Virus record (IMG/VR): IMGVR_UViG_3300042518_000946
Span: 1-20,605 of that record
Length of the DNA stretch: 20,605 bases
Strand: one strand, 5' to 3'
Source: a virus
Made by a program: the position numbers and the translations under genes. Every line of letters begins with the position of its first letter. The stretch's first letter is position 1. Below the pieces are notes generated by a model, which saw only the letters and a program-made list of their open reading frames with translations, did not search any database and was not told the DNA's origin. This document shows positions 28-3,647 of this stretch, in pieces.

Positions 28-225
28 ATGCAGGATGAATCCGAGGTCACCGAGCAGAGGCACACACCCGACCTGGCTCGCAAGGCCTACGACCTGCGGG
101 ACCGCGGCCTGTCGCTGAATGACGTGGCCAAGGCCTGCCAAGTGCCCCGAGGCAGCGTGGTCTACCTCATTACCAAGGGGCACGAGCTCTACCTCGCAAG
201 CCAACGGAAGGACATTGAACCATGA
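28..225 (+). CDS. Small helix-turn-helix protein (5' end uncertain)
   Basis: Encodes about 65 residues from ATG 28, but the frame is open to base 1 with no stop and no ribosome binding site before ATG 28, so the protein may start left of the window. Residues about 17-55 read as a helix-turn-helix: a helix (DLARKAYDLRDRG), a turn, then SLNDVAKACQVPRGSVVYLI as a recognition-type unit, followed by a short charged tail. It probably binds DNA, perhaps as a regulator or packaging accessory close to the terminase genes. Its stop overlaps the next start in an ATGA quartet at 222-225, so translation is probably coupled to the glycosyltransferase. The HTH reading comes from residue pattern only; the specific role is unknown. 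Confidence 0.6.
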   Translation: MQDESEVTEQRHTPDLARKAYDLRDRGLSLNDVAKACQVPRGSVVYLITKGHELYLASQRKDIEP

Positions 226-1040
226 CCGATAACAAGGCAGCATCCCCGCAGATGGAAGATCCATTCATTTACGCACCGCAGCCGACCAGCAAGGTGCAAG
301 GCATAACCCAGGCAGGCATTAGGCCTTCCATCCATGTCTCGCTGTACGCCTACGGCGGCATCAGTGCAGCGTGCATGATGTCCTGGGTCGACCTGACGGC
401 CACGTTCGCCCGCTCGGACAGGCAGACCGACCTCCGCACCATCCGGGAGGATGCCCTCATCAGCCGGTCCCGGTGCCGTGCCACCAAGTGGTTTCTGGAC
501 AGCGGCAAGGACGTCTGGGTCCAACTTGATCACGACATTGAGTTCGCCGCGGCCGATGTCATCCGCATGGCCGAGCTGGCCCATGAACACCAGGCCACCG
601 TCTGCATCCCGTACTCATGTCGCTCACTGCCCGCCAGGCCGGCCCTGCGCCCGAAGGTGGAGCACCTGCAGGCCTTGAAGCACCAGGTGAATGACGCTGA
701 GTGCGCCTCTGAGCTAGTGCCCATCACCATGTTCGCATCGGGATGCCTCGCAATCCCCCGCAAATGCCTTATGGCGACACTTGATGCGCTGGGAGGGTCA
801 GGAGTGCAGAACCCATACAGGATCGACTGGTGCGAGGATGTGCGCGTCGAGCGCTTCCCGACCTTGTGGATGCCACTAGCCATGGAATCCATGCCCGGCA
901 AACTCGAGTATCTCAGTGAGGATTACGCCGCTGCGGTCAGGATGACCCTAGCCGGAGTGAGGCACCTCTCCATGAAGCCCAAGAAACAACTCAACCACTG
1001 GGGAGAGTTCCCCTACAGCTTTGCGCCTTATGCCGGGTAA
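222..1040 (+). CDS. Putative GT-A-fold glycosyltransferase
   Basis: A 272-residue protein resembling the nucleotide-sugar glycosyltransferases that many tailed phages carry. Visible marks are ISRSRCRATKWFLDSG (residues 80-95), which matches the arginine-rich helix of Anp1/GT2-like phage enzymes, then LDHDIEF (102-108) in the place of the metal-binding DxD. Near the C-terminus SEDYAAAVRMTLAG (232-245) matches the acidic 'ED' acceptor-side motif, and His259-Trp-Gly matches the conserved HxG close to the end. The family transfers a sugar from a nucleotide donor to a target such as phage DNA bases, a virion protein or the host surface; the acceptor here cannot be read. A GGAAGG-like stretch lies about 10 bases before the ATG, one of the few Shine-Dalgarno candidates here. 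The 3' end overlaps the next gene by 11 bases. Family call is good; substrate unknown. Confidence 0.72.
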   Translation: MTDNKAASPQMEDPFIYAPQPTSKVQGITQAGIRPSIHVSLYAYGGISAACMMSWVDLTATFARSDRQTDLRTIREDALISRSRCRATKWFLDSGKDVWVQLDHDIEFAAADVIRMAELAHEHQATVCIPYSCRSLPARPALRPKVEHLQALKHQVNDAECASELVPITMFASGCLAIPRKCLMATLDALGGSGVQNPYRIDWCEDVRVERFPTLWMPLAMESMPGKLEYLSEDYAAAVRMTLAGVRHLSMKPKKQLNHWGEFPYSFAPYAG

Positions 1041-1641
1041 GAAGACAAGGGCGTCACTGAATGATGTGGCGGCAAAAGCCGGTACAGACAGAAACCGCGT
1101 AACGTGGGCACTGCGTGATGACCCCAAGTTGCCAAAGGAGTTCAAAGACAAGATTAAGAAGGCCGCAGAAGAGGTCGGTTACGTCAAGCCACCGACCAAC
1201 CAGCATCCAAACTCTAAGCTAGACCAAGACAAGGCTGACAAGATTGTGGAGGGTATCGTGGCCAACAAGTCACTTGCCACCATTGCTTCAGAGACAGGGT
1301 TGAGCGAGCACACCGCCTTCAAGTACATCAGAGGAGTCAAGGTACCAGTCGATTATCCAGAGAATGAGGAAGACTGGCGGAAAGACGTCACTGGGTTCCT
1401 GGAGGTCGCAATCTGGAAAGGAACGAGGCGATTGGCTCAGGAATCAATGGCTTTCATTGATGACCGTAGCTTACCCGTATCAGTAGCCGTGCTAACAGAC
1501 AAGCTGGCTACTATCAAGGGCCAGCCTACCAGCATCCACCTCGCCATGACAGCCTCTGTGAACCACCGCGACCTGATGAAGGACCTGAAGGAGCGCGACG
1601 TGACCCCCGTGAACGACGAGCAGACACCCGATCTGGTTTAG
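1030..1641 (+). CDS. Putative terminase small subunit with LacI-type HTH domain
   Basis: A 203-residue protein from ATG 1030; an in-frame TTG at 1021 would add three residues. Residues about 8-52 follow the LacI-family headpiece: SLNDVAAKAGTDRNRVTWAL is the helix-turn-helix, and KKAAEEVGY matches the LacI hinge-side helix. A second HTH-like unit lies at about 68-103 (IVANKSLATIASETGLSEHT). The remaining 90 residues carry SLPVSVAVLTDKLATIKGQP, a pattern that recurs in the C-terminal part of small-terminase-like phage proteins. No LacI sugar-binding domain is present, so it is not a complete LacI repressor. Its place just upstream of terL and of a repeat-bearing gap fits a packaging-site recognition subunit. 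The alternative is a phage transcription regulator. The start overlaps the previous gene by 11 bases and has no Shine-Dalgarno sequence. Confidence 0.6.
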   Translation: MPGKKTRASLNDVAAKAGTDRNRVTWALRDDPKLPKEFKDKIKKAAEEVGYVKPPTNQHPNSKLDQDKADKIVEGIVANKSLATIASETGLSEHTAFKYIRGVKVPVDYPENEEDWRKDVTGFLEVAIWKGTRRLAQESMAFIDDRSLPVSVAVLTDKLATIKGQPTSIHLAMTASVNHRDLMKDLKERDVTPVNDEQTPDLV

Positions 1642-1940: not shown

Positions 1941-3647
1941 ATGAGCCAACCCTTCTGCCTCACCTGCTCCAAGCCCTTCGAGATCATCAAGCAGCGCGAA
2001 GGCCCTAAGCAGAAGCGCTTCTGCACCGAGGCCTGCAACACCATTTGGTGGAACGAGCAACCCCAGCACCCCGTCATTCCTAAGGTCGACGCCTCGCACC
2101 CCCGCGCAATTGAGCTCAAGCTGAAGCGCACCCAGCTCGTACTTCTCGAAAAGGCCGATCCCTACACCTACGGTTTCATTCCAGACCACTGGGAAATCGC
2201 CAACGCCGAGTTCCAAGCCACCCAGGAGCTCTTGATCTCCGGCGGCAACCGCGCCGGTAAAACCCTCTGGGCCGCCCGCCGCGTGGTTCAAACCCTCCTC
2301 GAGAAGGAAAACGCATCTGTCCTCTGCTGCCACACATCCCACGCCACCTCGGTCACTGTCCAACAGCCCGCAATCTACAACTACCTGCCTGTCGCCCTCC
2401 GGGCCACCAAGAAGGGCCGCATCCACTACCTTAACTACAGCCGCAAGAACGGCTTCACCGACGGCTCATTCATCCTGCCCAACGGATCACGCTGTGACTT
2501 CCTCAACTACACGCAATCCGAGAACACCATCGAGGGCCGCGAGGCCGACTTGATCTGGTGCGACGAGCTCGTTCCTCAGTCCTGGGTGGACACACTTCGC
2601 TACCGCCTAATTACCCGCCGCGGCAAGCTCCTCGTGACCCAAACACCCCTCGAAGGCGTGGCATCGGTCTACAAGGAGTTCACCGCCGGCTCCTCAATCT
2701 CCGCTTTCCACGACGCCGAGCTCATCAAGGGCAAGCAAGCGCTCCCCACCTGGCCCATCGGCAAGGCCGCCCGCACCATGGTGCAGCCCCAGACCAACCG
2801 GCGCACCGTGTTCTTCTTCAGCGAAGACAACCCGTACAACCCCTTCGACGAGATGAAGAGCAAGCTTGTCACCTCGCCCATGGGCCAGATCCTGACCCGG
2901 GCCTACGGCTGGGCCTCGGACAACATCGGCAAGGCCTTTGCGCGTTTCCGCCCCGACATCCACTGCATCCCATCATCCAAGGTGCCCCCCGGAGGCACCC
3001 TGTACATGGTCTGCGACCCGGCCGGCGCCCGGAATTGGTTCTGCCTATGGCTTCTGGTTTACGAGGACGGCAAGCGCATCGTGGTCCGCGAGTTCCCCGA
3101 CTTCTCCAACTACGGCGAGTGGGCCCTGCCATCCGAAAAGCCCGACGGCAAGCTCGGCCCCGCCCAGACCCTCGATGCCGGCCGGTCAATCTCCGAGTAC
3201 CGCAACCTCTTCCGCCAGATCGAATCCGATCTCGGCTACGGCGAGCCCGTGATGCGCCTGATCGACCCCAAAGCCGGCGGTTCCCCCGCTTTATCCGAGG
3301 CCGGCGGCACAACCCTCATCGACCTCTTGGCCGAGTCCGACAACCCCTTGGACGAGCCCATGGCCTTCGTACCCGCACCCGGCGTGCCCGTCGACCAGCG
3401 CACCAGTGCCATCAACTCGCTCCTCTCCTACGACGCCACCCAACCCCTGACCCCGCTCAACGAGCCCTCGCTCTACATCACCGACAACTGCGCCAACCTC
3501 ACCTACGCACTCTCCGAGCACACCGGCCGCGACGGTCAGAAGGGCTGCACCAAGGACCCCATCGACTGCCTGGGGATGCTTTTGGTCTCCGGTCTTGCGT
3601 TCGTAGGCCGCGGGGGCTTTGATTGCCGCGGCGGCGGCGGATACTAA
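1941..3647 (+). CDS. terL: Terminase large subunit (packaging ATPase-nuclease)
   Basis: A 568-residue protein that pumps DNA into the prohead and cuts the concatemer. The ATPase carries a Walker A motif SGGNRAGKT at 100-108, a Walker B LIWCDE at 204-209 with catalytic Asp208-Glu209, and a coupling motif LLVTQTP at 230-236. The RNase H-like nuclease follows, with candidate metal-binding aspartates Asp359 (MVCDP), Asp442 (LIDP) and Asp539/Asp542 (KDPIDCLGML). The N-terminus has an extra zinc-knuckle-like segment: Cys6 and Cys9, then Cys28 and Cys32 in RFCTEAC. Length is normal for the family and the motifs are intact. The start is taken from the ATG after the A-rich leader; no Shine-Dalgarno sequence is present. 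A short all-GC inverted repeat (3607-3613 with 3626-3632) lies at the end of the gene. Confidence 0.95.
   Translation: MSQPFCLTCSKPFEIIKQREGPKQKRFCTEACNTIWWNEQPQHPVIPKVDASHPRAIELKLKRTQLVLLEKADPYTYGFIPDHWEIANAEFQATQELLISGGNRAGKTLWAARRVVQTLLEKENASVLCCHTSHATSVTVQQPAIYNYLPVALRATKKGRIHYLNYSRKNGFTDGSFILPNGSRCDFLNYTQSENTIEGREADLIWCDELVPQSWVDTLRYRLITRRGKLLVTQTPLEGVASVYKEFTAGSSISAFHDAELIKGKQALPTWPIGKAARTMVQPQTNRRTVFFFSEDNPYNPFDEMKSKLVTSPMGQILTRAYGWASDNIGKAFARFRPDIHCIPSSKVPPGGTLYMVCDPAGARNWFCLWLLVYEDGKRIVVREFPDFSNYGEWALPSEKPDGKLGPAQTLDAGRSISEYRNLFRQIESDLGYGEPVMRLIDPKAGGSPALSEAGGTTLIDLLAESDNPLDEPMAFVPAPGVPVDQRTSAINSLLSYDATQPLTPLNEPSLYITDNCANLTYALSEHTGRDGQKGCTKDPIDCLGMLLVSGLAFVGRGGFDCRGGGGY

Follow-up and report, generated by a model that had tools for sequence, protein, structure and literature searches.

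The 203-aa protein encoded directly before the large terminase in a fragment of an uncultured virus carries a LacI-type DNA-binding headpiece at its N-terminus, and this headpiece exists in at least eight discrete recognition-helix types, which are linked to one stretch of DNA from the start codon onward. The reading that we favour, with a probability of about 0.6 for the whole statement, is that the protein is a small terminase (TerS) to which a LacI headpiece has been added, giving exchangeable packaging specificity. The DNA belongs to IMG/VR record IMGVR_UViG_3300042518_000946, and the window, meaning the whole stretch analysed, covers 20,605 nt (positions 1 to 20,605 of the record), including a portal gene and a gene for an SU10-type major capsid protein (PF17236, E=1.2e-40).

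Gene order and conservation of the locus

The genes surrounding the candidate are the following.

222 to 1040, plus strand: upstream gene g1, 272 aa, with no assigned function, adjoining the small-terminase candidate in the relatives checked.
1030 to 1641, plus strand: LacI-headed small-terminase candidate (203 aa), conserved in 138 viral-contig stretches and by synteny.
1941 to 3647, plus strand: large terminase TerL (Terminase_6N, PF03237, E=5.1e-10).

The ATG of the candidate gene overlaps the stop of g1 by 11 bases, and about 300 noncoding bases separate its end from TerL. The order of HTH gene, 272-aa gene, LacI-headed gene, gap, TerL, portal and major capsid protein is conserved in all contigs long enough to contain it, and when loci are anchored on g1, a protein with a LacI-type N-terminus is encoded next wherever the contig extends that far; two contigs stop too soon to show it. 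Relatives of the 203-aa protein are encoded in 138 stretches of viral contigs, and the ORF is thus conserved; all known relatives are metagenomic sequences, and a pattern-limited scan of 84,980 GTDB genomes found no prophages or hosts with the C-terminal half. TerL is 87-97% identical among the relatives of genus 1, and a second genus, whose TerL is 77-80% identical, has the same LacI-headed architecture. The small-terminase position ascribed to the gene in the initial annotation is supported, as TerL follows the gene immediately in those TerS-anchored loci that are long enough to show it.

A small HTH gene, g0 (1-225), is located two genes upstream of the terS-terL pair, encodes about 108 aa when complete and is kept in most relatives. 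The start of TerL (1956-2036) resembles a zinc finger, with an invariant CxxC...CxxxC arrangement (C6, C9, C28, C32), and weakly matches HNH-endonuclease and uncharacterised phrog families.

The LacI-type headpiece

1030 to 1197, plus strand: LacI-type headpiece, residues 1-56 (Pfam match to residues 10-52, 1057-1185), from Pfam, phmmer, PDB profile and Foldseek.

In the window protein, the Pfam LacI family (PF00356) matches residues 10-52 with E=1.3e-4 and 22.1 bits, below the curated cut-off of 27 bits, which is exceeded in three of the eight relatives tested (G001, 38.7 bits; G008, 32.2 bits; G005, 31.7 bits). The same family is matched by all 21 relatives in one set and by 31 of 35 in another. 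The DNA-binding headpiece of CytR was identified by phmmer (E=9.8e-5), a family profile of 21 relatives matched LacI-family headpieces in the PDB (best E=3.3e-7), and the AlphaFold model, with an AF2 pLDDT of about 80-88 for residues 10-50, was placed by Foldseek onto 1l1m, the headpiece of lac, with 49 columns superposed at 1.3 A (TMt 0.70), adopting the three-helix headpiece fold. The resemblance is not due to chance. Each of these approaches bears out the N-terminal LacI headpiece that was read from the sequence at first, and the profile searches place the first 50 residues with LacI rather than with another HTH class.

No periplasmic-binding-protein-like ligand domain was found in Pfam, PHROGs or NCBIfam, and a length of only 203 aa confirms the proposed absence of the sugar-binding domain. 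The accompanying hinge pattern did not hold: a GY motif is followed by coil and by QH.N, of which the QH is invariant and the N near-invariant in relatives, while the LacI hinge helix is absent, residues 50-65 being coil in both AF2 models. Nor was a Verrucomicrobiota source of the domain recovered, as the seven GTDB matches to the headpiece from the pattern-limited scan all fall in other groups, namely Actinobacteria, a lactobacillus, Caulobacter and Microbulbifer.

Probable identity of the gene as a small terminase

1213 to 1332, plus strand: second helix-turn-helix (residues 62-101), which the TerS families phrog_1482 and phrog_4102 match, with weak scores, through their N-terminal HTH.
1366 to 1515, plus strand: helical region, residues 113-162, proposed oligomerisation core, with low-confidence helices H113-129, H133-144 and H148-162 and strong conservation.
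1564 to 1638, plus strand: conserved C-terminal tail (HRDLMKDLKERDVTPVNDEQ), near-invariant in genus 1, proposed TerL contact, a role suggested by lambda and P22 TerS.

TerS proteins are built from an HTH at the N-terminus, followed by a helical core and a tail (PMC9611059); in lambda, 21 and N15, the part that binds TerL is located in the C-terminal half (PMC9026076). The second HTH of the initial annotation gained support, as residues 62-101 are modelled as helices (H66-77, H82-89 and H93-99) and phrog_1482 and phrog_4102 align to them with weak, subthreshold scores (E 0.015-0.2, the best, 0.015, with phrog_1482). The alignment covers profile positions of about 5-53 across the searches, and of about 12-50 in one of them, which is the N-terminal HTH of TerS; since the TerS profiles begin there with their own N-terminus, what follows the LacI headpiece is of TerS size, and the headpiece can be read as placed in front of it. 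The suggestion that the remaining C-terminal part is TerS-like stands insofar as this part is helical, conserved and plausible, but neither sequence nor fold lends it support: the C-terminal half is predicted as helical in two AF2 runs, but with a pLDDT below 50.

All TerS scores of the 203-aa protein are subthreshold, and no TerS family is matched significantly. Six genomes have a phrog_1482 hit, and in these the best match falls at the LacI-headed gene, apart from trivial fragments of 15-23 residues in G008. A second terS, which would have spoken against the assignment, was found in none of eight complete or near-complete relatives, and PF03592 (Terminase_2) gave no matches. Given its place directly before TerL, its architecture and the lack of any other candidate in the complete genomes, the gene probably encodes the small terminase, with family scores below threshold. 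The family phrog_30044 was considered as a headpiece-less homologue and was not found in the records tested.

Recognition-helix types and a putative exchangeable cassette

1090 to 1113, plus strand: recognition helix, residues 21-28, from the modelled helix H21-28, the type table and the specificity positions of PMC2978694.

The types and their specificity triplets are:

Type A, the window's own: AGTDRNRVTWAL, triplet R/N/W.
Helix type AGTHRDAVSAAL, triplet R/D/A.
Helix type AGVNYLYTQRVL, triplet Y/L/R.
Helix type AGVNYVYTQRIL, triplet Y/V/R.
Helix type AGVYPHHAQFVM, triplet P/H/F.
Helix type AGVNHQYAQRVL, triplet H/Q/R.
Helix type SGVNEVYVNRIL, triplet E/V/R.
Helix type CGVNVVRVNQIL, triplet V/V/Q.

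Residues 17, 18 and 22 of lac set specificity in the LacI family (PMC2978694), and their equivalents in the window protein, R21, N22 and W26, vary between types, of which there are at least eight discrete ones plus a singleton. The headpiece has an amino-acid diversity of about 0.4-0.64, compared with about 0.04-0.28 (mostly below 0.28) for the C-terminal half, at similar synonymous diversity.

1030 to 1529, plus strand: putative exchangeable specificity cassette, the sole stretch linked to headpiece type, from column association and trees.

Across 123 unique regions, type explains a share of column variation of about 0.41-0.75 between the start codon and about 1354, about 0.34-0.55 from there to 1529 and about 0.18-0.35 elsewhere across 130-2341, with a sharp boundary at the start codon (1030), these statistics resting on headpiece types defined in this analysis and measuring linkage, not function. 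On the trees, type changes 8 times for the headpiece, 14 times for HTH2/core and 35 times for the C-terminal stretch, compared with 49 changes for g1, 49 for the intergenic region, 52 for TerL and about 70 for shuffled labels. Few changes on the headpiece tree against many on those of its neighbours indicate that the types hop between backbones as a unit from the gene start, and the headpiece, judged from sequence comparison, looks like a specificity cassette exchanged between near-identical phages.

Search for the DNA target

1642 to 1940, no strand: conserved intergenic region, unlinked to type, with two AATGTCCTACCCCT copies, a GC-rich invariant block and AACGAAAAATAT.

This intergenic region had been put forward as the target of the headpiece, an expectation that the data do not support, since it shows no covariation with type and an association at background level. 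Phages of types A and B with nearly identical intergenic DNA exist, and no linkage extends outside 1030-1529, so that the headpiece types are not matched by different sites in neighbouring noncoding DNA. Types B-E, whose recognition helices differ, have flanking DNA in common.

Several features of the region were observed in their own right. The two AATGTCCTACCCCT copies (1653-1666 and 1818-1831), about 165 bases apart, are conserved in most relatives, and a nearly invariant GC-rich block (GGGGGAGGGGGTC) follows the second copy; together they are a possible promoter or packaging element. In L008, L012, L036 and L043, the left part of the region after terS is replaced by DNA with GGTTCGATTC motifs (tRNA T-arm-like) and AGTGCTAAC repeats, which suggests that an element was exchanged or integrated there. 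The end of terS (1600-1638) and the first 30 codons of terL (1941-2030) have reduced synonymous diversity, and DNA-level constraint seems to reach from the intergenic region into both genes. A cos site might make contig ends cluster in the intergenic region, but no such clustering was found.

A perfect, LacI-operator-like palindrome of 16 bases, GCAGAAGCGCTTCTGC (2009-2024, in terL), is kept with at most single-base changes in the tabulated relatives; it was rejected as a target because its bases form the conserved codons for QKRFC, and the one that varies ignores type. No family-wide palindrome exists in the cassette. Genome-wide, no k-mer of 12 or more bases follows type A, and the sole candidate for type B, an intergenic 25-mer, is also present in 4 of 24 other genomes, while types D, E and G are represented by too few lineages for this test.

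Within terS, GAATCCTCTATTAACTTG, 18 bases at codons 137-142 (equivalent to 1438-1455) in types B-E, e.g. L062, shows almost no synonymous change (0.028 vs 0.395 in 59 unique sequences; shuffled P=0.0002, for a stretch chosen after looking). The flanking codons vary, and the window's type A does not contain GAATCCTCTATTAACTTG. This stretch may be a DNA or RNA element embedded in terS; being common to types B-E with their different helices, it is not itself a type-specific site. The options that remain for the target are a site inside the cassette or a target other than phage DNA.

Proposed mechanism and alternative explanations

In the mechanism proposed here, a tailed-phage group with an SU10-type capsid and portal would use a TerS whose layout is the ordinary one, an HTH, a helical core and a tail that contacts TerL, but for an additional LacI-type headpiece at the N-terminus. 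This TerS would oligomerise via its core and recruit TerL through its C-terminal tail, while the headpieces would read specific DNA through the recognition helix and so determine the choice of concatemer for packaging. Headpiece, HTH2 and core would be inherited as one cassette and swapped among phages by recombination, and types with different specificity residues would confer different packaging specificities, as in lambda, 21 and N15, whose winged-HTH TerS proteins differ in recognition helices, in R sites and in packaging specificity (PMC4669245). The data establish what the headpiece is, the position and uniqueness of the gene, the diversity of types and the linkage of the cassette, and from these we infer a TerS function, oligomerisation, a DNA target and a packaging specificity, and with them the recognition of a packaging site by the 203-aa protein.

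Because only the DNA of 1030-1529 follows type, the cognate site would most simply lie within the cassette, as a pac-type site inside terS. A more specific and rather doubtful extension is a polymorphic packaging-compatibility system, in which terS would carry a LacI-type reader together with its own recognition site in the coding sequence, the two being co-inherited. If this were true, the cassette would spread in the phage population, and near-identical co-infecting phages would package only their own type.

An unlikely alternative is that the gene encodes a transcription regulator ahead of the late operon, with a headpiece that binds operators and types that resemble repressor immunity types, and that TerS is absent or goes unrecognised elsewhere. 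LacI headpieces belong to regulators, transcriptional regulators are among the phrog families matched (several of them), the TerS scores are subthreshold and the small upstream HTH gene g0 is present; however, the position before TerL is fixed, complete genomes contain no second terS, and the C-terminal half is very conserved, unlike a ligand domain. Flanking noncoding DNA, where operators would be expected, ignores type, and the k-mer result for type A points in the same direction.

About equally improbable, the protein may be a TerS whose headpieces have diversified to evade satellites, or anti-packaging proteins, that target the DNA-binding domain of TerS, rather than to recognise different packaging sites. 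The Rpp proteins of PICIs in lambda-like phages hijack TerS by heterodimerising (PMC9026076), and frequent type switching without linked DNA outside terS fits a protein target, but it is the DNA-contacting triplet in the recognition helix that changes, and not only a dimer face. Finally, it is very improbable that the headpiece is a general clamp of weak sequence specificity with which TerS holds DNA, its types being neutral or generated by recombination. Ring TerS can bind DNA via many sequence-independent HTH contacts (PMC4737164), and no target was seen to covary with type; however, the headpiece is where amino-acid diversity is concentrated, at similar synonymous diversity, and discrete types recur on many backbones.

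Comparison with known systems

To our knowledge, known small terminases read DNA by a single HTH or winged HTH, and no published LacI-headed small terminase was found in the open-access literature. The recognition code of LacI headpieces is unusually well worked out, and the family described here offers eight natural headpiece versions on nearly constant backbones. The choice of packaging DNA by TerS and the evolution of packaging specificity thus become testable through the binding preferences of natural types, which, in moving between near-identical phages, possibly give them different packaging specificities.

Among sequences on record, UniProt A0A6J7WBQ9 (uncultured Caudovirales phage; 206 aa, 57% identical) belongs to the same family and is annotated by domain only, as 'LacI-type HTH domain'. 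The gene upstream of TerL in Phage C75C1 (OQ984151), a distant relative whose TerL is 29.6% identical, occupies nearly the same place and by inspection encodes an HTH and helices, but it has no LacI headpiece, and homology to its family was rejected, the hhalign profile comparison being not significant. LacI, CytR and PurR share the sequence and fold of the headpiece and the variation at positions 17, 18 and 22, whereas the phage protein has neither hinge helix nor sugar-binding domain and continues after the headpiece into a second HTH and a C-terminal half that is conserved among the phages. The TerS proteins lambda gpNu1, P22 gp3, SPP1/SF6 G1P and PaP3 likewise adjoin TerL and have an HTH followed by a helical region, here predicted, and a conserved tail; the 203-aa protein differs in the LacI-type headpiece ahead of these parts, and its core fold is predicted only. 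In comparison with the lambda/21/N15 system of winged-HTH gpNu1 and cosB R sites, the headpiece here is of LacI type, the adjacent noncoding DNA ignores type and a cognate site was not found, but both systems combine a conserved TerL with TerS recognition helices that differ among related phages.
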